From contig JAITHJ010000048.1 of assembly GCA_031280035.1 (NCBI GenBank), forward strand, positions 1 through 48,424: a stretch of DNA of 48,424 bases. The letters run 5' to 3'. Origin of the DNA: Spirochaetaceae bacterium. Lineage in GTDB: Bacteria; Spirochaetota; Spirochaetia; Treponematales; Breznakiellaceae. Shown here piece by piece: positions 2,753 to 39,476 of this stretch. A program made the translations under genes and the position numbers. Below the pieces are notes generated by a model, which saw nothing but the letters and a program-made list of their open reading frames with translations, had not been told where the DNA came from and made no database searches. Numbering within the stretch: position 1 is the first letter of the stretch; every line of letters begins with the position of its first letter.

Positions 2753-3457
2753 CTAGTAAGCGGCGTATGGAATTATTTCAGTAACACGCAGCCGGAAACT
2801 TGCCTGAGCCGCCCAATTCCCATGAAAAATCCTATAAAGCGGAAATTCCGAAAGCGCAATATATCCGCGAACCATGCGGGGACGGTTCTTCTGTGTTGCA
2901 CGGAGTTCAGCGCGGATAGCTTTTTTAAGAGCGTCTTCCAGCGCAGCTTCTTTTACCATTTTACGGTCTGTTACGCCGTCTTTTCCTTGCAGCGGCGCGA
3001 ATCCCATCGCCTTTATTTTTTTTGTACCGGCGGCGTTCCACGCGGTCATACGGAATTGCTGTTCGCCGGAAAGATTGTAATCACACCACGTATACAGGAC
3101 TTCGTTTTCAACAGAAGCGTTTGTAATTCTAAGCCTGTCGTCTTTCATTTCAATCCTGCCTAATGGCGTTAAACTGATATATTCACTTATTTCACGGACT
3201 CTTTCGCCAGGCTCGTATTCAAATATCCAGCCGTATATCATGCCGGAAAACGCCGTCGCTGAATCCTCCAGCGCCCAAAGATCCGCTGTTTTTTTGTCCA
3301 ATGGAGAAGATATTCCAAGATGAAGCAAATACACAGGTTCAAGCTCGACAGACACTTCGCCCCTGAGTACTTCACGCGGAACGCTTTGCGCGCCGGCTGT
3401 AAATGAAGTGATAATAGCAGTACAGAAAAATACGCAAAAAAACTTGCCGCGCAACAT
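2753..3457 (-). CDS. Hypothetical secreted protein
   Basis: ORF with N-terminal signal-like MLRGKFFCVFFCTAIITSFTAGAQS. Confidence 0.6.
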   Translation of the reverse strand: MLRGKFFCVFFCTAIITSFTAGAQSVPREVLRGEVSVELEPVYLLHLGISSPLDKKTADLWALEDSATAFSGMIYGWIFEYEPGERVREISEYISLTPLGRIEMKDDRLRITNASVENEVLYTWCDYNLSGEQQFRMTAWNAAGTKKIKAMGFAPLQGKDGVTDRKMVKEAALEDALKKAIRAELRATQKNRPRMVRGYIALSEFPLYRIFHGNWAAQASFRLRVTEIIPYAAY

Positions 3458-3586
3458 ATTTTTATTATCGGATTTTTTGACGGCCAGCGCTGTATTAATT
3501 ACCGTTCACACTGGATAGCGCATCTTAAACCCGCCGCCTAATGAATATATACAATGTAAAAGCTCAACAAAAACACCCATAAAATG

Positions 3587-4411
3587 CTAGAACCGCCATT
3601 TTGTAACAAGCGCGTCAAAAAGAATGCCTATACCAAGCATTGCTGTCCAAACGGAAAATCCGTAGAGTGTTTTGTGGCGTATGATATTTAGCATAAATTT
3701 CACCGACAAAAAGCCTGTTATGGCGGCGGTAAACGTACCTGCAATTACCGGCGGCCATTCGATAACCATAGATAAATTACCCTCGTGAAACAAGTCTTTC
3801 AGCTGAAGCAGCAACGCGCCCAAAACAGCTGGAATAGCAAGCAAAAATGAAAATTTTGTAGCAAATTCACGATCAATTTTCAGCCCAAGCGCGCCGGATA
3901 TCGTAAATCCAGACCTGGAAATACCTGGTAAAATGCCAATCCCCTGCATAAAACCAATAAAAAGCGCGTCCTTCCAGTTAAAATCATCTTTATTTCGTAT
4001 TATTCCGCCACGCCGTGATAATTTTTCTGAAATAAAAAGCGCGGAGGAGGTTATCAAAAAAGCGCAGCCCAAAAAAATGCTGGATGTCATCGCGTTCTCT
4101 AAAATAGACTGTCCCGTTTCAGAGACAGTTTTTTGCAATACAAATGCAAATACTGTTGTAACCGCTGTAGCAAGGATCAGAAATCCTGTAAGCTTTTGTA
4201 TGGGATGACAAAGAATTTTCCAAATATCAGTCCAAAGGACAACCAGAGCCGCCAAAAGAGTCCCTCCATGCAAAAATGTATCAAATAACAACGCAGGTTC
4301 ATCAATACCCAGTACCTTTTGCGCAATGGAAAGATGGCCTGAACTGCTCACCGGAAGGAATTCAGTAAATCCTTGAAGCGCGCCAAGAAAAATCGATTGT
4401 CCTATATTCAT
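3587..4411 (-). CDS. uppP: Undecaprenyl-diphosphatase (BacA/UppP)
   Basis: ALQGFTEFLPVSSSGHL and PGISRSGFTI motifs. Confidence 0.95.
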   Translation of the reverse strand: MNIGQSIFLGALQGFTEFLPVSSSGHLSIAQKVLGIDEPALLFDTFLHGGTLLAALVVLWTDIWKILCHPIQKLTGFLILATAVTTVFAFVLQKTVSETGQSILENAMTSSIFLGCAFLITSSALFISEKLSRRGGIIRNKDDFNWKDALFIGFMQGIGILPGISRSGFTISGALGLKIDREFATKFSFLLAIPAVLGALLLQLKDLFHEGNLSMVIEWPPVIAGTFTAAITGFLSVKFMLNIIRHKTLYGFSVWTAMLGIGILFDALVTKWRF

Positions 4412-6450
4412 ATTTTACCTTTAGAATTTATCGAATTAAAATGCTGCTGTAATTTTGACGTTATATGTTTTATCTGTGCATTACACTCATTTATATCAAA
4501 AAACCCGCTGTTAAAATTTTCTCCTAAATGCATTCTGGCTGTTTTGCGCTCCTCTTTGTTGTGAGAATTAAATGAAGTGATAAATCTTCGAAATCGCAGA
4601 GGGCCTTCAAGCTTCTCCGGCGGCGCGGCGCTTTCACCCGCAACGCAGCGTATACTCTCATTTTTTCCGGCGTTGTAAGCAGCAAGAATTATTATTTTTA
4701 TTGTCCAGCACATTCCGTATTCATAAGCGACTTCCGAAAATCCGTTTCCTGCTAAATCCGCTATGGTAAGATGTCTTTTGATACAATTGTTTTTATCAAG
4801 GAAATCGGCGTTCGCCCTGTATTCAAAAACAAAACGGTGCGCGTAAATTCCCGTCCAGCCGAAAAGCGCCTGAATTAATTTATGCAAATCAAGAAGCTGA
4901 ATCGTTTGCGGAAGCACCATACGCCGCCAGACATCAGTTCCGCCTATGCCGATCTGCACAGTGCGCCACACAAAATCCGGTTCAGCGTCATGCTTAACAA
5001 GCGTAATATTACTGTATCTATAATTATCAAGCGATTTTTCTATCATTTCTTTAATTTCCTCGTAAGTATCAATCATACTATCAAGGGAATTTTCAATAGC
5101 GGTAATATCATACTCAAAACTTTCATCGTCACTTATAAGATCTTCCAATAATGTAGCAGCGTGGTTTTGGATTTGCGATAATACGGTAAATGCGTGTTTA
5201 GGAAGCCATGTATGATTTATATCGCCTTTTCGAATTCGAGCAGCAAGATCTATTACAGCCGTATGAAGTTCGGCCACGCGCTGGCGGAGCGGGCCTGTTT
5301 TCTTGTCTGTAAAAACCGAATAATTATCTTTGAACTCCTGAAATGTCTCTACAACATAAGATACCAGCACTTCAAGATTCCAACTGCGCATTCTTATCGA
5401 AGGCGGCACGATTCTATCAACAATTGCTGATACCTCCGTGTCCTTACGAAAAAGCGCATCATAAACATACGACTGTATCACATATTCAGAAATCGGAATA
5501 TCGTTGTGTAATAAAATTTTCTCAATAGGCGTCTGGTCGCTCTGGGTCTGAATACCTTCAAGTTTGGTAAAATCAGGAATTTCTTTTCCCGCAAACCAAA
5601 ATCTTGATTCAATTCCAAAAGGAACCGTTTCTATTTTATCGGTTTTTTCATAAAGAAATGACTCCAATGAATACGCCGGAACAGTACGCATCCTTATCCC
5701 GCCGTAAAAAAACGCCCACGCGACTTGTTCTTCAATAGTACAATTTGGGCCAACTTTCTCAAAAGACATTCTAAACCCGCTTTCAGCTATTGTAAACCAT
5801 TTTACCAGTTCATCCTTATCCCACCTGGAGGCCGGGATATGTTCAACTTCAAATACGGAATTTCGCCAATCAATAAGCGTAAGAACAAGATTGTCGCCGG
5901 GTACAAAGAGCGATTCCCGGTAGAAAGACCGCATATCAAATGTTTTTATTGAAACTTCCAGCGGTTCTTCGTAAGGATCGGCGTTATAAGCCGCCTCGTT
6001 CTGGGGACTTTCCCGCGCAATAAGCTGAGGCGAAAATTCATCGCCAAATATCGAATAGTACGGGTAGAGATCATCAGGGGATGCCTCTGTATCTATAAAA
6101 GGAATTTCTTTACCTTTCCAAAGACACGTATATTCCTTCTGCATTCTAATAGGGCTTGCAAACGGAATAAATCTATGACCTGGAATTAGAATGCCATTGA
6201 CAAGCTCGTCTTTTGTTGGGTTTATAACAAATTTTGAACCTGTAAAACAACCCGCTCTCGTTATCCAGCGATTTGAGCCGATATTAAAGGCAAGCCGATT
6301 TTCCTTAATGAGACGAGATATTTCTGCGGAAAGCCGGCCAAAATTTGAGCTGTCTTGAGCGCGTACAGTTGCCGTAACGTCTTTCAGCAAAAACGGTTCA
6401 CGCCGCTCAAGTAAATATTCATAAAGCGCATCTTCTTGAACTTGTGTCAT
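4408..6450 (-). CDS. Large protein with plasmid pRiA4b ORF-3-like domain
   Basis: C-terminal IQLLDLHKLIQALFGWTGIYAHRFVF resembles pRiA4b ORF-3 family; overlaps uppP start by 4 nt. Confidence 0.65.
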   Translation of the reverse strand: MTQVQEDALYEYLLERREPFLLKDVTATVRAQDSSNFGRLSAEISRLIKENRLAFNIGSNRWITRAGCFTGSKFVINPTKDELVNGILIPGHRFIPFASPIRMQKEYTCLWKGKEIPFIDTEASPDDLYPYYSIFGDEFSPQLIARESPQNEAAYNADPYEEPLEVSIKTFDMRSFYRESLFVPGDNLVLTLIDWRNSVFEVEHIPASRWDKDELVKWFTIAESGFRMSFEKVGPNCTIEEQVAWAFFYGGIRMRTVPAYSLESFLYEKTDKIETVPFGIESRFWFAGKEIPDFTKLEGIQTQSDQTPIEKILLHNDIPISEYVIQSYVYDALFRKDTEVSAIVDRIVPPSIRMRSWNLEVLVSYVVETFQEFKDNYSVFTDKKTGPLRQRVAELHTAVIDLAARIRKGDINHTWLPKHAFTVLSQIQNHAATLLEDLISDDESFEYDITAIENSLDSMIDTYEEIKEMIEKSLDNYRYSNITLVKHDAEPDFVWRTVQIGIGGTDVWRRMVLPQTIQLLDLHKLIQALFGWTGIYAHRFVFEYRANADFLDKNNCIKRHLTIADLAGNGFSEVAYEYGMCWTIKIIILAAYNAGKNESIRCVAGESAAPPEKLEGPLRFRRFITSFNSHNKEERKTARMHLGENFNSGFFDINECNAQIKHITSKLQQHFNSINSKGKI

Positions 6451-18701: not shown

Positions 18702-19565
18702 TCATCCTTGGAGAAGCTGCAAAACAGACTGCGCTCTCTGATTAGCCTGTGCAAGCATAGCCGTACCTGACTGATTAAGAATCTGATGCGTCGTGTAACG
18801 GACCATCTCGTTCGCCATATCCGTATCACGTATACGTGATTCCGCCGCCTGCAGGTTTTCCGCGCCAATATCAAGGCCACGAATCGCATGTTCAAGCCGG
18901 TTTTGGTATGCGCCAAGATCAGCCCGCTGCTTATTTATGATTTTTATGGCCTCGTCAAGCGTTCCTATAGCACGGTTTGCATCAGCTGCTGTCTCAATCG
19001 TAAGTATGGAATTATCCCCTAAATCACGCATACCAAGAGCTTGAGCAGTCATCGTTCCTATAAACGCCCGTTCTCGCTGATCAATATTCGCGCCAATATG
19101 AAACCACATTGAAGCGGTAACATGATTTTCGCCCGTTTCACGCGCAAAACGCCCTGTTAAAAGGTTCATTCCGTTAAACTGAGCATGTGATGCAATGCGG
19201 TCGACCTCATCAACAAGCTGAGAAACCTCAACCTGTATTTGCATTCTGTCTTCTTCGGTGTATATACCGTTAGCTGATTGCACCGCAAGTTCACGTATAC
19301 GCTGAATAATATCCTGCGCTTCTTGCAGATACCCTTCTGTAGTTTGAATGAAAGATATATCATTCATTGCATTTTCAGAAGCCTTATTCAAACCGCGAAT
19401 CTGACTGCGCATTTTCTCGGATACCGCAAGACCGGAAGCATCGTCTCCCGCTCTGTTAATTCTAAGTCCGCTGGACAATCTTTCTGAATTTTTTGAAAGC
19501 TCTACTTGCGTAACTTTTAGAGACCTGTCCGCAAACATTGCGCTCAGGTTGTGATTGATAATCAT
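18702..19565 (-). CDS. flaB: Flagellar filament core protein FlaB (flagellin)
   Basis: [59 protein letters not shown]; conserved flagellin C-terminus. Confidence 0.97.
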
Positions 19566-30411: not shown

Positions 30412-30538
30412 AGATTTATTGTTATCTTACTCAAATTGATTATGAAGCGCAAGACGCCCACGGTCTCTCTGCGTTTCCGTTTGACGCTTTTATCATATCC
30501 CTCTTTATCAAAGAAATCGAAATATGCTATTTTTCTTT

Positions 30539-32269
30539 ATGGAAATAAACTTAAACAGGCTTGTTCAGGTTGCGGCGGGCGATAAACCTGCCGATCTTGT
30601 CATTCGCGGCGCGGCTGTCGCGTGCGTCTATTCGGGGACTTTTATTGAAGGCGATATTGCCATTGCCGAGGGGCTTATCGCCGGCATTGGCAGCTATCAA
30701 GGCGAAAAAACGATTGAGGCAAAGGGGCTTTACGCGCTGCCCGGCTTTATTGACAGCCACATTCATATTGAATCTACGCATCTTTGTCCTGAAGAGCTGG
30801 GGACGCTTCTTGTTCCGCACGGTACATCCACTATTATAGCTGACCCGCATGAAATCGTAAATATTGGCGGTCTTAACGCGCTGGACTATATGCTCAACGC
30901 AGCGGAGTTTTCACCGCTTGAGATTTTTTTTACGCTGCCGTCCTGCGTGCCTGCAACGCCGTTTGAGAACAACGGCGCAGCGCTTGACGCCTGCGCTCTA
31001 AGCGGGCCGCTGCTTCAGGAGCGGGTACTCGGACTGGGCGAGTTTATGGACTTCACCGGCGTATGCCGTGCGGAAACGGCTGCGCTTGACAAGATACGCG
31101 CCGCGTGGAAAGCGGGAAAAATTATTGACGGACACAGTCCCGGTCTTTCCGGCAACGCGCTTAACGCCTACTGTGCAATGCGTATACATACTGATCATGA
31201 ATGTTCAACCGCACAGGCTGCGCTCGACCGTATATCACGCGGAATGTATGTGATGCTTCGTCAAGGCTCGGCGTGTAAAGACATTGTAAACCTGCTGCCC
31301 GCTATAACGCCTCAGAACGAGCGGCGCTGTCTTTTTTGTTCCGATGACCGCCAGCCCAAAACCATTTTTGAGGAAGGCCACGTTGACGGCCATATGCGCC
31401 TTGCCGTTGCCAATGGGCTTGATCCGATGACTGCAATACGCATGGCCACGCTCAACGCCGCGGACTGTTATCATCTTAGCGACCGCGGGGCCATCGCGCC
31501 CGGACTGAGGGCGGATATTGCTCTTGTAAACAATCCGCGTGATTTTAACGTGTGCAAAATGTTTATAGGCGGCGTTCTTGCCGGTGAGGACGGACGCTGT
31601 CTTGTTCCGGTAACGCGGTATGACGATTCGGCGCTGCGCGGACGGTTTAACGTTCGGGATTTTTCCGTTTCAAAGCTCAGTCTGCGCCTTAAAAGCGATG
31701 ACGTGTATGTCATTGACGTTAAGCCGGGTATGGTGGAGACTGTTAAGGGACGCGCGGTTATTACGCGGAATGAAGACGGCGAGTACCTTTATGACGCCGC
31801 GTCCGGCATAGCGAAGCTTGCCGTAGTTGAGCGTCATAAAGGTACAGGGAATGTAGGCGTGGCGCTGATACGGGGTTTTGGGCCGCGCGCCGGCGCGCTG
31901 GCGCTTTCGGTAACGCACGATTCGCACAACATCATTGCGGCGGGAGCTAATGACGCTGATATGGCCTATGCGGTGGAGACTCTGATTGCAATGGGCGGCG
32001 GCGTAATTGCCGCAAAAGACGGCGTAACGCTTGCCGCAATGCCGCTGCCTTTGGGCGGCATCATGAGCGACCAGAACGGCGAATGGGTCGAGGCCGCTCT
32101 TGCCCGTATCCATCACGCGGCGGAGCATGAGCTGGGCATTGAGGCGGGGCATGACCCGCTCATCACTCTGTGTTTTATGGCGCTGCCTGTAATACCCGAA
32201 CTCAAGCTGACCGACAAAGGACTCTTTGACGTCCAGAGCTTTTCGTTTATTCCGCTGGAAGCGCGCTGA
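30539..32269 (+). CDS. ade: Adenine deaminase
   Basis: LYALPGFIDSHIHIESTHLCPEELG; IADPHEIVNIGG; CSDDRQPKTIFEEGHVDGHMR. Confidence 0.95.
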   Translation: MEINLNRLVQVAAGDKPADLVIRGAAVACVYSGTFIEGDIAIAEGLIAGIGSYQGEKTIEAKGLYALPGFIDSHIHIESTHLCPEELGTLLVPHGTSTIIADPHEIVNIGGLNALDYMLNAAEFSPLEIFFTLPSCVPATPFENNGAALDACALSGPLLQERVLGLGEFMDFTGVCRAETAALDKIRAAWKAGKIIDGHSPGLSGNALNAYCAMRIHTDHECSTAQAALDRISRGMYVMLRQGSACKDIVNLLPAITPQNERRCLFCSDDRQPKTIFEEGHVDGHMRLAVANGLDPMTAIRMATLNAADCYHLSDRGAIAPGLRADIALVNNPRDFNVCKMFIGGVLAGEDGRCLVPVTRYDDSALRGRFNVRDFSVSKLSLRLKSDDVYVIDVKPGMVETVKGRAVITRNEDGEYLYDAASGIAKLAVVERHKGTGNVGVALIRGFGPRAGALALSVTHDSHNIIAAGANDADMAYAVETLIAMGGGVIAAKDGVTLAAMPLPLGGIMSDQNGEWVEAALARIHHAAEHELGIEAGHDPLITLCFMALPVIPELKLTDKGLFDVQSFSFIPLEAR

Positions 32270-32295
32270 CCGCAGGCTCTTGCGTTATCTTTTTT
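32231..32295 (+). repeat. 65-bp direct repeat, copy 1 (3' end of ade plus downstream)
   Basis: gtccagagcttttcgtttattccgctggaagcgcgctgaccgcaggctcttgcgttatctttttt; 64/65 match to 33130-33194. Confidence 0.98.
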
Positions 32296-32318
32296 TCTGA
32301 TATATTCTTTATAATGTA

Positions 32319-33120
32319 ATGGAAGCTATCATAGAAACCATAATAATCCCCGCAGCTATAACTTGCCCCCCCCCCCCCCCCGAACCACTATGTTACTCTT
32401 CTATTACTGATAACTAACACTATAACACTAGTATGTTTAATAGTCCTTACCCTGTATTATAAAATACCTAAGAAAATAATTCCTAAAATAATTGAACCTA
32501 AATATTCCAAAACAAATTTCTTGAAAAGAATAAACCACAAAGGAACGATGCTGGATGCCGGCTGCGGTAATAACTCTCCGTATTATATAAAATCAAAGTA
32601 CCCTGATATAATTTATACCGGTATTGACGTAGGGGATTATAACCAGATAAATCCCAATTCCGCTGACAAGTATATTATTGTAGAGCCGGATAAATTTGCT
32701 GAAGCAATAGCGAGTTTACCGCAGAGATTTGACACGGTAATTTCATCTCATAATTTAGAACATTGTAATGATAGAGAAAAAACATTGGAGGCATTGATAA
32801 AAGTATTAAAGAACAACGGATATTTATATTTATCATTTCCTTCAGAGAAAACCGTTAATTTTCCCGGGTTCCGTAGAGGATCGTTAAATTATTATGATGA
32901 TCCGTCACATAAATACTCGCCTCCTGATTATAATAAAACAATAGCGGCATTGCAGCAAAACAATATGGAGATTATATTTGCAAATAAATCATATAAACCA
33001 TTCTTTATGTATTGGATAGGGTTTTTCTTGGAACGGAAATCAAAAAAAGACAAAGAAATAAAGAATGGTACGTGGGCATACTGGGGATTTGAAACAATAA
33101 TTTGGGCAAAGAAAAAATGA
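32319..33120 (+). CDS. Class I SAM-dependent methyltransferase with N-terminal TM leader; frame interrupted at a 16-C tract (putatively phase-variable, OFF as assembled)
   Basis: ATG 32319 reads MEAIIETIIIPAAITCPPPPP then terminates at 32415-32417; deleting one C joins it without stops to NHYVTLLLLITNTITLVCLIVLTLYYK...GTMLDAGCGNN...HNLEHC. Confidence 0.8.
32366..32381 (+). repeat. Poly-C tract, 16 nt
   Basis: Direct count. Confidence 0.98.
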
Positions 33121-33129
33121 TGCCGCGGC

Positions 33130-33194
33130 GTCCAGAGTTTTTCGTTTATTCCGCTGGAAGCGCGCTGACCGCAGGCTCTTGCGTTATCTTTTTT
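33130..33194 (+). repeat. 65-bp direct repeat, copy 2
   Basis: gtccagagtttttcgtttattccgctggaagcgcgctgaccgcaggctcttgcgttatctttttt. Confidence 0.98.
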
Positions 33195-33258
33195 ATGGAC
33201 GCGCGCCGATAAAGAGAGTATACGCCGTATTCAGGGCGCAATGGTTTTAAGGAGAATA

Positions 33259-33948
33259 ATGATGTTTCCACAAGGAAAAATGAAAGCGATTACATTCAGT
33301 TTCGATGACGGGGTGGAGCAGGACCGCAAGCTGGTCGAAATCCTCAACCGGTTCGGGTTCAAAGCGGCGTTCAACTTAAACAGCGGCGTTCAAAGCGGTT
33401 CCGCTCCGTGGTGTCAGAACGATCTTGTTGTCCGCCGGCTGAACATAGCCGAACTTCCCGGTCTCTATGCCGGACACGAAATTGCCGTACACTCGCTGAC
33501 GCACCCGCACCTAGAATATCTTGATGAGCCGACAATCCGCAACGAACTGGAACAAGACAAACTCAATCTGGAACGAATCTTCAACACAAAGGTTCGGGGC
33601 ATGGCGTATCCGTACGGAACATACAACGCGCTGGTAACAAAAACCGCGCGCCGCTGCGGTCTGGAATACGCGCGGGGCGTCTCCGCTACCGGCCTGTTCG
33701 ACATTCCCCAGACTACGGAGGAGCGGCTCGCTTACCAGCCCACCTGCAACCATGACGATCCGCAGTTGATGACGCTTGCGGATGCGTTTCTCAAGCTCAC
33801 GCCGCAGACCCCACAGCTTTTCTATATCTGGGGACACAGCTATATGCTTGAAGCCAATAACAACTGGCATGTACTGGAAGAATTCTGCAAGCTCACCGCC
33901 GGACGGAACGACATCTTCTACGGCACGAACGCCGAAGTCTTACTATAA
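33259..33948 (+). CDS. Polysaccharide deacetylase (NodB-like)
   Basis: AITFSFDDGVEQD; HEIAVHSLTHPHL; RGMAYPYGTYN; GGAG SD at 33251. Confidence 0.9.
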   Translation: MMFPQGKMKAITFSFDDGVEQDRKLVEILNRFGFKAAFNLNSGVQSGSAPWCQNDLVVRRLNIAELPGLYAGHEIAVHSLTHPHLEYLDEPTIRNELEQDKLNLERIFNTKVRGMAYPYGTYNALVTKTARRCGLEYARGVSATGLFDIPQTTEERLAYQPTCNHDDPQLMTLADAFLKLTPQTPQLFYIWGHSYMLEANNNWHVLEEFCKLTAGRNDIFYGTNAEVLL

Positions 33949-34869: not shown

Positions 34870-34899
34870 TGAAACGGCGGCGGAATAAGCCTAGTTCAC

Positions 34900-35005
34900 A
34901 GCCGTGAACCAGCTTGGTTAATAGTCATGAACTAGCTTAGTTAATGGCTGTGAACCAGCTTGGTTAATGACCGTGAACCAGCTTAGTTAATGGTCGTGAG
35001 GCAGC
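34900..35005. repeat. 23-bp imperfect tandem repeat, four units plus a partial, intergenic
   Basis: AGCCGTGAACCAGCTTGGTTAAT / AGTCATGAACTAGCTTAGTTAAT / GGCTGTGAACCAGCTTGGTTAAT / GACCGTGAACCAGCTTAGTTAAT / GGTCGTGAGGCAGC. Confidence 0.95.
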
Positions 35006-35119: not shown

Positions 35120-36283
35120 ATGGAAGAACAGACACGGAACAGCGAATGGAGCGGCATGACTCTGCTGATATGCGTTCCTACCTATAACGAAGCAGAGAAC
35201 ATTATGCCGTTTCTAGACGCGGTATTTCAGTACGCGCCGGCGGCGGCCAGCGTGCTGGTTATTGATGACAACTCGCCTGACGGTACGGCGGCGATTGTCC
35301 AGCGGCGTATTGACGAGCACGGAGAAAAACTCCACCTGCTCAATCGACCTGAGAAACAGGGTCTAGGGGTTGCCTATATCGCCGCGTTCTACTGGGGTAT
35401 AGACCGCAGTTACGACGCCTTCCTTGAGATAGACGCGGACTTCTCACACGACCCTGCGTACATTCCCCAGATGTTCAACGAGCTGCAAACTCACGATGTG
35501 GTCATAGGCTCGCGTAATATTAAGGGAGGCTCGGTCTCCGGCTGGGGGCCGCTGCGGCATATCATATCAAAGGGCGGCTCGCTGTACGCGCAGTGCATTC
35601 TTGGCTGCCCCATCAAAGACCTCACCGGAGGCTTCAATATGTATCGCAGACAGACGCTGCTGCGTATCGGTCTCGATAAGATTATTTCGAAAGGATACAC
35701 CTTCCAGATCGAAGCAAAATACCATGCATGGCGCGCAGGATGCCGTATCATAGAAATACCCATCCTCTTTACAGACAGAACGCGCGGCGCATCTAAGATG
35801 TCAAAAAAGATATTTATAGAGGGGCTGTTAAGTGTTTGGAAGATACGCTTGTCTACGGCGGACACTCAGGCGGCGCGGCGCACTGTGGAGCAGGCTTTTA
35901 AGTTCGGCATAACCGGCACGCTCGGCACGGCAACAAACCTGGCTCTGTTCTTCCTCTGCGCCGATATATTCTCTCTGCCGCCCGTCCCCGTCAGCATAGG
36001 ATGCTTTTTAGTGACAGGCACGCAGAACTACTTTATCAACCATATATGGTCGTTCGCCAGCGTTATGCGCGGCGCAAAGCTCTCTGTCCTGCGGTGGCTC
36101 AAGTATCTGGCCAGCGCGCTTGCCGGACTTGCCGTGAGCCTCGCCGTGATGTACGCCGTCCTCAACCACTGGACGCTGCCGTACAAGGTCATTGCACAGG
36201 CGGCAGGCGCTATCGCAGGGATGTTCATCAACTTTACAGTATCCAAGTTTATCGTGTTCAGGAGTAAGAATGAAAATATATAA
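35120..36283 (+). CDS. Family 2 glycosyltransferase (polyprenol-phosphate mannosyl/glucosyltransferase-like) fused to GtrA-like membrane domain
   Basis: VPTYNEAENI, VIDDNSPDGTA, EIDADFSHDP; C-terminal GtrA-like FGITGTLGTATNLALFFLCADIF...NYFINHIWSF. Confidence 0.92.
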   Translation: MEEQTRNSEWSGMTLLICVPTYNEAENIMPFLDAVFQYAPAAASVLVIDDNSPDGTAAIVQRRIDEHGEKLHLLNRPEKQGLGVAYIAAFYWGIDRSYDAFLEIDADFSHDPAYIPQMFNELQTHDVVIGSRNIKGGSVSGWGPLRHIISKGGSLYAQCILGCPIKDLTGGFNMYRRQTLLRIGLDKIISKGYTFQIEAKYHAWRAGCRIIEIPILFTDRTRGASKMSKKIFIEGLLSVWKIRLSTADTQAARRTVEQAFKFGITGTLGTATNLALFFLCADIFSLPPVPVSIGCFLVTGTQNYFINHIWSFASVMRGAKLSVLRWLKYLASALAGLAVSLAVMYAVLNHWTLPYKVIAQAAGAIAGMFINFTVSKFIVFRSKNENI

Positions 36284-36986
36284 AGCGTTCCTTTCGGTAC
36301 TCTGCATTGCCGCAGCAGCAGTCTCGTTCCTCTATTTGACTCTGCGTAACCGCGATAGTCTCGGCGAGTACTACGCCAAAAGCGCCGTCAACGTTGAAAT
36401 CGACAGGCGCTATGCAAAGAATATCGCGCTGTCCATAAAGACGGAGCCGTCAGGCTGTTCGTACTGGCTTGCCCCAACAACAGACGGCGATGATAACAGC
36501 CCTAACATCGTGATGCACGTAAGAGTGCCTCTCAAGCGTCCTTATTGGGAGCCTGCGTTACAGCTTCCGCTTGAACAGGCCGGCGAAGCCGTCTCGCACA
36601 TTGATAATATCGCAATGTTCATTGGAAACAAACTCCACTACTTCACTCATGACGATATACCGCGGTTTAAGAGCGCGATCAAGGACATAGGCGGCGTGAA
36701 GTATGCGCTCTATTACCTGCCCGGCGTGCACTACGCTTCGTCACTAGTCTTTCCAGACTGGAGCAACTATTACGGCGATGTCAACTTGGGGATAAAGGCG
36801 TTGACAGCCTTCTTTGTATACCCCGCCCAATACGCCTTTACATGGATATTTCTTGCGCTGTTCGCGCTGCTCAACATAGACTGGATACGCAGCCGGTTCG
36901 CCGTGCTGTTTAACGCGCAAACCGGCGCTTCCCTATTCCTCCCCCCCCCCGCACGTACGGTGCCACAGAGGAGTGTACTACAGTAA
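36270..36986 (+). CDS. Membrane-anchored hypothetical protein; N-terminal half of a putative phase-variable glycosyltransferase (ends just after a 10-C tract as assembled)
   Basis: ATG 36270 with GGAG upstream; N-terminal TM, extracytoplasmic region, second TM, then LFLPPPARTVPQRSVLQ*. Confidence 0.75.
   Translation: MKIYKAFLSVLCIAAAAVSFLYLTLRNRDSLGEYYAKSAVNVEIDRRYAKNIALSIKTEPSGCSYWLAPTTDGDDNSPNIVMHVRVPLKRPYWEPALQLPLEQAGEAVSHIDNIAMFIGNKLHYFTHDDIPRFKSAIKDIGGVKYALYYLPGVHYASSLVFPDWSNYYGDVNLGIKALTAFFVYPAQYAFTWIFLALFALLNIDWIRSRFAVLFNAQTGASLFLPPPARTVPQRSVLQ
36941..36950 (+). repeat. Poly-C tract, 10 nt
   Basis: Direct count. Confidence 0.98.
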
Positions 36987-38407
36987 CACGGAAAAGCAGA
37001 TGGCTTGTACGAGGCCTGCGTTCTTGCACAGGCAGGGGCCGCGCGGCGGCGCTGCTCCTTATCGCAATCACGCTTGCCGGATTTACCCTTCGTCTCAACG
37101 GATTTGTCCGTCATTCAGCATGGACTGACGAGCTTGAGTCCGCCGTCTACTACAGCAGCCCCAACAACCCTGTAAGCAGCGTCCTAGACGACACCGGCAA
37201 CCCTCCGTTCTATTACTTCCTGCTGCGATGCTGGTTTTCCGTACTGGGCTGGTCTGAAGAAACCGGAACGCTGCTTTCGGTCATACTGGGAACCGGCGCG
37301 ATTGTTACCATCTATCTCTTTATCGCGCCGTTCATGGGAAAGCGTACGGCTCTTTACGCCGCGCTCTTTACGGCGTTCAGTGGTTTTGTCATAGACTATT
37401 CACATGAAATGCGCGCTTACATCTTCAAAATATGCATGGCGCCGCTCGCTTCACTGTGTCTGCTGCGTATCATGCAATCATTCTCGCTCAAGTACGCGCT
37501 CTTATACATCGCGCTGTCGATAAGCATTGCAGGCAGCCATTACTACGGGATTCTGTTCGTCATGGCCAACTTCCTGTTCTTTATCTGCAATATGATCTGC
37601 CAGCGTCAGTGGAACGGTAAAAGGTTCTTCGGATTCCTTGCCGTAAATGCAGTTATCGCCGCAAGCTTTTTGCCGGTCTTTTGGTATCTAGTGTTTCAGA
37701 AAGGATATAATTTTAAGCGTAATTTAGCTCCAGGGGCGGGACATATCTTTTTGCTTGCGGTCGTTATCGCGGCTCTTTCCTGCTTCTTCCTGTTCAAAGA
37801 CAAACTGCAAAAGCTCAACTTCCTAATCTGCAATAACCGGACGGAATCGCTTCGCTTTGCGCCGTACTGCATTCTTCTTCCCGCCTTTATGTTCTGCTGC
37901 GCGTTCTTGATTTCACTTGTTAAGCCGCTGATTTCAATCAGGCGTTTTTGGCCCATTTGCGCGCCGTATTTCTTTGCGCTGGCCGCCGTCTTTATATCCC
38001 GAATCGCTGACAAATACAGATTCCTCAAAATCCTTTTTGCCTATATGGTTATCGCCGGACTGCACAGACTAACGCCCGACCTTCCCGCCGGCGGAACGGA
38101 AGGATACAGAGAAGCGCGGGCGTATATTGCCGCTGACGCCGCGGCGCACCCTGAACGAAAAGCCGCGCTGCTTACAGACACCTCACCTATAGCGGCTTAT
38201 TACGGATACGAAGAATTGCCCGTCTATCGCAAAGGAGAACAATATGACGTACTATATGTTTTGCACGGCGTATACTCCATGAATGAGACTGATATGTATG
38301 AAACCCTTCACATCCATAAAATGGATGCGGACAATATGCTAAAAATACGCTTTGACTACGATTTTCCCCGAGGAGACGGCAATGTTATCTTCAAGAAATT
38401 CTTTTAG
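36953..38407 (+). CDS. GT-C / family 39-like membrane glycosyltransferase domain, without its own start codon near the 5' end (out of frame with 36270 ORF by one C)
   Basis: Frame is open from the C tract: ...AALLLIAITLAGFTLRLNGFVRHSAWTDELESAVYYSSPNNPVSSVLDDTGNPPFYYFLLRCWF...; ORF track begins only at the internal ATG 37334. Confidence 0.75.
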   Translation, partial: TYGATEECTTVTRKSRWLVRGLRSCTGRGRAAALLLIAITLAGFTLRLNGFVRHSAWTDELESAVYYSSPNNPVSSVLDDTGNPPFYYFLLRCWFSVLGWSEETGTLLSVILGTGAIVTIYLFIAPFMGKRTALYAALFTAFSGFVIDYSHEMRAYIFKICMAPLASLCLLRIMQSFSLKYALLYIALSISIAGSHYYGILFVMANFLFFICNMICQRQWNGKRFFGFLAVNAVIAASFLPVFWYLVFQKGYNFKRNLAPGAGHIFLLAVVIAALSCFFLFKDKLQKLNFLICNNRTESLRFAPYCILLPAFMFCCAFLISLVKPLISIRRFWPICAPYFFALAAVFISRIADKYRFLKILFAYMVIAGLHRLTPDLPAGGTEGYREARAYIAADAAAHPERKAALLTDTSPIAAYYGYEELPVYRKGEQYDVLYVLHGVYSMNETDMYETLHIHKMDADNMLKIRFDYDFPRGDGNVIFKKFF

Positions 38408-38602: not shown

Positions 38603-39476
38603 ATGTACTCTTTTAAAACATTTCTAAAAAAGATAGTAAAAAATCTCTTACCTTATTTTATTATAAAGATGTATAATAATCCCCCCCCCCCCCCCCCCGC
38701 ACTTGAAAGACTGGAAATCCGCAGTTATAACATATAACGATAAAACCATAACAATTAACGATATTTACAAATATATTGACATACTCTATACAAACGTAGA
38801 TGTAGATGAATATAACTATTATCAAGCTCATGCCTTACGCTATTTAATAACATTAGACTATGTCATTAAATATAATCTATACAAAGGAAAGGTTCTTGAA
38901 GTAGGAGGCGGCGGTTTCTTTACCTATTTAATGAAAGATATATTAGGAATTGATATAGTTAATTTCTCAGATGATTTACGAAAACCTATTGAATTAGATA
39001 AAGACCAATTTGATGTTATTATCTGCATGGAAGTAATTGAGCATATAATAGACAATGACGCTTTTTCTCTTTTTACTTTTAAAGGCCTTGCCGTAATGCT
39101 CAATTCTTTTTGGAATCTATTAAAAGAAGACGGTAAAGTATTGATAACAACGCCAAATAGCTGCGGCCTCTTTGCCATGTCAAAATTACTTAACTCAAAG
39201 AGTCCTCTTATGTTTGTATTTCATGCAAGAGAATATACTCCCTATGAAGTAAAAAAAATATTACGCTCATTTAATTATGAGATAGACGCATTAACTACTG
39301 AATGCGCATTTGATAAACACTATAAGAAGAATAAAATGTTAAATTTACTCAGAGACAACCTGTTCAATCTAAAATACAGAGGCGATGATATTTTTGTAGT
39401 TGCAAGAAAACCTGCAAAGACTGAAATAAATGCAGACGTGAATATAAGCGATGTTTTAATAAATGAGGACACATAA
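38603..39476 (+). CDS. SAM-dependent methyltransferase with short N-terminal leader; frame interrupted at an 18-C tract (putatively phase-variable, OFF as assembled)
   Basis: GGAGG SD then ATG 38603 MYSFKTFLKKIVKNLLPYFIIKMYNNPPPPPP...; deleting one C joins it to HLKDWKSAVITYNDK...GKVLEVGGGGFFTYLM...FDVIICMEVIEHI. Confidence 0.8.
38681..38698 (+). repeat. Poly-C tract, 18 nt
   Basis: Direct count. Confidence 0.98.

Follow-up and report, generated by a model that had tools for sequence, protein, structure and literature searches.

The window, by which we mean the whole 48,424-nucleotide stretch of Spirochaetaceae DNA that was analysed, contains an intact gene for adenine deaminase (ade, 30524..32269; TIGR01178 at 573 bits, above cut-off, with PF13382 and PF01979) whose 3' end is present twice. 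The first copy of this 3' end (32230-32295) runs on from the intact ade ORF and is the native one, consisting of the last 13 ade codons, a weak terminator-like hairpin downstream of them and a T-run. The second copy (33129-33194) is a detached and truncated ade tail that retains the 13 codons and the terminator-like element. An insert of 833 bp (32296..33128) separates the two copies, and the native neighbour on the right, a polysaccharide deacetylase gene (33241..33948; PF01522), follows the second; all of these features are on the forward strand. An earlier note on this DNA, made from the letters alone, had described a 65-bp direct repeat with one mismatch and a spacing of 899 bp. Our repeat search found that repeat at the same spacing but one base longer, at 66 bp, with the single mismatch (C32239 / T33138) synonymous in ade. 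The note's description of a stop codon and downstream T-run was also correct, and the terminator-like hairpin, with a 5-bp stem, is present in both copies (32271-32284 and 33170-33183), while the folding of the whole 66-bp repeat is no better than that of shuffled sequences. A search of the 1.43-Mb assembly found the 66-bp sequence in these two copies and nowhere else, which excludes, within the assembly, the dispersed element that the note had named as a refuting case. Among 2000 random control intervals of island-like length drawn from the genome, a bracket score of at least 60 was reached by 0.05%; the bracket formed by the ade tails scores 63.

The GC content of the insert is 0.34 in surroundings of ~0.53-0.57 on either side. 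As the note had stated, a methyltransferase gene is the sole gene between the repeats, where it is the only ORF of at least 80 aa. This gene, MT1 (32319..33120, forward strand), occupies 96% of the insert, essentially from edge to edge: its ATG at 32319 is 23 bp past the first repeat copy and its stop at 33120 is ~8-9 bp before the second. The product is a class I SAM methyltransferase (PF13489, Methyltransf_23, and PF08241, Methyltransf_11, both above cut-off), and ahead of the catalytic domain there is an N-terminal hydrophobic segment resembling a membrane helix, which aligns with its counterpart in the homologue from genome G144. No signature of a DNA-methyltransferase family was found in MT1, the nearest approach being a weak PADLOC match to mad2 (E 0.0056), and a role in DNA methylation or defence was rejected for lack of family support. 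Within 5 kb of MT1 there are genes for GT2, PMT-type and deacetylase proteins, and this neighbourhood of glycan genes, with its GT2/GtrA functions, suggests a surface glycan as the target of the enzyme. We predict that the substrate of MT1 is probably a surface glycan or a lipid-linked sugar.

The reading frame of MT1 is interrupted by a homopolymer of 16 C residues (32366..32381, forward strand), unmentioned in the earlier note, which separates the frame on the ATG side (MEAIIETIIIPAAIT...) from the methyltransferase frame. The two frames are joined with 15 or 18 C and disrupted with 16. Across the window, a search for 10 or more consecutive C gave 17 overlapping matches, where 0.05 would be expected. 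MT1 is probably phase-variable by way of this tract, to judge from the break in its frame, and would be OFF as assembled, the length of a C tract read from a metagenome assembly being uncertain. Slippage at the tract would switch MT1 on and off reversibly.

Other genes of the window and the genome carry tracts of the same kind. A second poly-C methyltransferase gene, MT2 (38604-39476), has a C18 tract (38681-38698) in its N-terminal frame and in the assembly is out of frame by one base; it resides in an island of GC 0.31 that is not bracketed by repeats, and no relative of MT2 was detected at E <= 1e-8 in 200 genomes of the family. A C10 tract (36941-36950) splits the gene for the PMT-type membrane glycosyltransferase (36192-38407) in two ORFs, which the addition of one C would join, bringing to three the candidate phase-variable genes within 7 kb. 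On contig C69 (L048), a glycosyltransferase-like ORF has an in-frame C12 tract (2301-2312, MYLPPPP...) and is ON as assembled. The genome has about 23 C or G tracts of at least 12, mostly outside long ORFs. A tandem array with a 23-bp unit (GAACCAGCTTGGTTAATAGTCAT-like) occupies positions 34883-34999, between a DUF4469 gene and the GT2 gene.

This genome belongs to the termite-gut Treponema group: its best named matches are Treponema MAGs, from the records of which the termite source is deduced. The distribution of MT1 is patchy. Protein matches to it occur in 12 of 99 relatives, only 2 of which exceed 50% identity outside this genome, and a DNA search added 2 more. The homologues share 65% (G021), 64% (G232) and 63% (G144) amino acid identity with MT1; a further homologue in G013, at about 58%, has a broken frame, and G127 retains a remnant of 51 residues. 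The sites they occupy are mutually unrelated (by a ruvA-like gene, before a glycosyltransferase-like gene, within a glycan cluster, or alone, the neighbours having been named from a reading of the sequence), and some homologues adjoin glycosyltransferase-like or sulfotransferase genes. At the DNA level, MT1 and its homologues are similar within the gene only, and the similarity stops at 33106-33121, near the MT1 stop codon. In five other genomes the homologues have neither a common flank nor an ade tail, and no bracket of host sequence was found around any homologue elsewhere. The unrelated sites, together with similarity that ends at the gene, indicate that MT1 moves as a single unit of which the ade tail is not part. 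The homologues of G144 and G232 have no C tract and that of G013 is interrupted in mid-gene by a frame-breaking G9 tract, so that tracts, being at different positions in the MT1 family, seem to have arisen more than once. Dispersed palindromic repeats (GTTCGGAAACTTCAGTTT...) are found on both sides of the G013 homologue (L103 7306-9002), and in L144 (40-973) an element similar to them stands on either side of an AT-rich stretch of 860 bp.

A distant homologue (37%) is encoded by a plasmid of Pseudodesulfovibrio, among methyltransferase, nucleotidyltransferase and sulfotransferase genes. An origin of MT1 from a phage or plasmid was rejected, there being no relative in phages or viral contigs and this one distant homologue alone on a plasmid. 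The search for an empty site covered 99 genomes by protein and 200 genomes of the family by DNA; the adjacency of ade and the deacetylase gene is kept in none of them and no empty site was found. The nearest ade among the relatives is ~60% identical, and neither G013 nor G021, both of which carry MT1 homologues, gave an ade match.

Nearly the whole assembly (all but 9,091 bases) was scanned for non-tandem direct repeats, with coding tandem repeats, paralogues and dispersed heptamer-type repeats set aside, and one clear parallel emerged. Contig C66 has a 196-bp repeat (2687-2882 / 4773-4968; 97.4% identity, 5 mismatches) which is present in two copies only in the genome, is unrelated to the ade tail and derives from the 5' end of a host gene, as opposed to the 3' end duplicated at ade. 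The 1890 bp that it encloses are AT-rich (GC 0.35) and occupied by a single gene (2937-4703), the product of which is a membrane protein with a weak likeness to the LA_3751-family glycosyltransferases (E 0.001, below cut-off). The repeat (AGAGACA)7 follows directly after the start codon of this gene. Since the search that turned up the C66 cassette started from the MT1 case, the two cases are not a statistic. Among the 35 AT-rich islands of a separate scan, whose flank criteria the C66 island failed, the MT1 island is the one that is bracketed; the proposition that all AT-rich islands enter by bracketing was therefore rejected, and bracketing appears to be an occasional and not a general route of entry. 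A 132-bp repeat on C66, which surrounds an insert of ordinary GC, and a 175-bp repeat at the edge of C72 were not counted as brackets. The latter (1-175 / 3485-3659; 94%) represents a gene 3' end and flanks genes that resemble baseplate or injection functions (weak Phage_base_V, DUF6931); it may represent a further bracket or else a paralogue. In G142 and G195 the C66-type gene also has repeats around it; these have the spacing of tandem paralogue arrays and were likewise rejected as brackets.

The insert and its borders were also examined for the hallmarks of known mobile elements. Neither the insert nor any other part of contig C48 has a match to PF00589 or PF00239 (tyrosine and serine recombinases), in agreement with the earlier note's statement that no integrase is encoded between the repeats. 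There is no transposase ORF between the repeats, and the ends of the insert show no terminal inverted repeats beyond matches of A/T runs. A transposon or IS was judged unlikely on these grounds and on the size of the duplications, which at 66 bp here and 196 bp in the second case are far above the usual target duplications, as the note had already remarked for the ade repeat. The repeats lack attC sites (GTTATCT is present, not GTTRRRY, and has no partner box), and the reading of MT1 as an integron cassette was rejected. Elsewhere in the assembly there are five tyrosine recombinase genes, including an IntI/Xer-like one on C3, a possible integron integrase near 18968-19450 (TIGR02249 at 202 bits and XerA at 212 bits, both below cut-off). 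C51 (1-4000) has an integron-like array of AT-rich genes split by attC-like sites (CATAACA ... GTTATGC / GTTAGGC).

From the anatomy of the locus, and not from an observed event, we deduce an insertion accompanied by duplication, and we consider it fairly probable that the MT1 locus represents a single-gene insertion with a long target duplication. Insertions of this type have been described for restriction-modification genes of H. pylori (Nobusato, Uchiyama, Ohashi and Kobayashi 2000, cited in PMC1643837 and in PMC3031569, the latter with the words "long and variable target duplications"). The cases in H. pylori resemble the MT1 locus in that a small gene unit without a recombinase of its own is bounded by long direct repeats which derive from host DNA and vary in length and sequence with the site. 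They differ from it in that the cargo here is a methyltransferase of the non-DNA type with a homopolymer switch, in a spirochaete, and that no empty site was found in a sister genome. Several observations weigh against a long target duplication: no relative with an empty site was found among those searched, one AT-rich island in 35 is bracketed, MT2, the gene most similar to MT1 in design, has no bracket, and the precedent concerns restriction-modification genes, whereas MT1 bears no DNA-methyltransferase signature.

To our knowledge, the mechanism by which long target duplications form is not settled. MT1 might have entered through DNA uptake and recombination, through end-joining or template switching, or through a single crossover of a circle that carried an ade tail. 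The duplication itself could have originated from a widely staggered break repaired with capture of foreign DNA, from replicative template switching, or from the crossover of a circle at short homology. A ComEC gene is present in the genome and makes DNA uptake plausible, though it does not prove it. Once the bracket was in place, recombination of the two 66-bp copies with each other would remove MT1 precisely, as a one-way step, and restore ade with one terminator-like element. The downstream copy may act as a terminator for the MT1 transcript. The earlier note's picture of an excisable cassette survives in part: a foreign one-gene cassette is bracketed by a duplicated gene end and could in principle be deleted by recombination between the repeats, but att-type integration and a passenger moved in trans are not supported.

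Among the alternatives, the one that fares best, though with a low probability, is an integration of the Campbell type, in which a circle bearing MT1 together with an ade tail recombined homologously into the chromosome. A length of 66 bp is sufficient for homologous recombination, and the one mismatch in 66 bp would fit two slightly different source copies. Such a route needs a donor in which MT1 was already beside an ade tail, for example a circle excised from a bracketed strain, and it could therefore propagate an existing bracket but not account for the first one. No donor arrangement of this kind was found, none of the MT1 homologues adjoins ade, and the genomes G013 and G021 gave no ade match.

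Two further alternatives are both improbable, and to about the same degree. The ade tail might first have been duplicated in tandem, with MT1 arriving later between the copies or replacing sequence there; tandem duplications are common in this genome, but two events would be required, and MT1 leaves just 23 bp and 8 bp between itself and the copies, with no trace of an intermediate. Or the second tail might be an artefact of assembly, a strain-variant junction or a chimeric join, as could be imagined for a fragmented assembly (74 contigs, 63.7% complete) with a repeat that exceeds the k-mer of some assemblers. Against an artefact, the copies are distinct sequences, with a one-base difference close to one end, ordinary coding DNA continues for kilobases on both flanks, and a longer and more diverged bracket exists on C66. 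The weakest alternative, by a small margin, is the one that the earlier note had proposed, an att-type integration in which a recombinase supplied in trans would have placed a passenger cassette at an attachment site in the ade 3' end: the duplicated sequence is indeed the 3' end of a gene, where many att sites lie, and the five tyrosine recombinases could be invoked, but an att core is unlikely, since the repeats are host sequences that differ in sequence and length from site to site, the C66 repeat coming from a gene 5' end, since neither insert nor contig encodes a recombinase, and since the homologues share no junction, flank, ade end or att-like core and the repeat has no attC features.

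As in the islands that tyrosine recombinases insert at gene 3' ends, one junction of the MT1 insert has the gene 3' end regenerated and the other has a duplicate of it; unlike those islands, the MT1 cassette consists of one gene without an integrase, has no common core and is paralleled by a cassette that uses a gene 5' end. Integron gene cassettes share with it the form of a single-gene, AT-rich unit, yet the MT1 bracket is host coding sequence. Homopolymer tracts that make surface-glycan genes phase-variable constitute the contingency loci of Campylobacter, Helicobacter and Neisseria. MT1 is like them in its poly-C tract in the coding frame, its potential for on/off slippage and its glycan-gene neighbourhood, and unlike them in being also bracketed by direct repeats that would permit precise loss. 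In the literature searched, no report of homopolymer phase-variable glycan genes in termite-gut treponemes was found.

The MT1 locus is probably a member of a rare but known pattern, familiar mainly from the restriction genes of Helicobacter, with an unusual cargo. A bolder idea, to which we give rather little credence, is that termite-gut spirochaetes carry one-gene "contingency cassettes" for surface glycans, in which a tract switch and a long-target-duplication bracket are combined, so that reversible toggling would be joined by clean loss and regain through recombination, the same process of entry serving unrelated cargo and sites. A regenerated gene 3' end is, by itself, no proof of an integrase. 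The two cases, each with a single, switchable and putatively surface-modifying gene in one uncultured spirochaete, would suggest that the process extends beyond restriction genes, and long target duplication may be a general way in which transformable, surface-variable bacteria gain and lose single genes.
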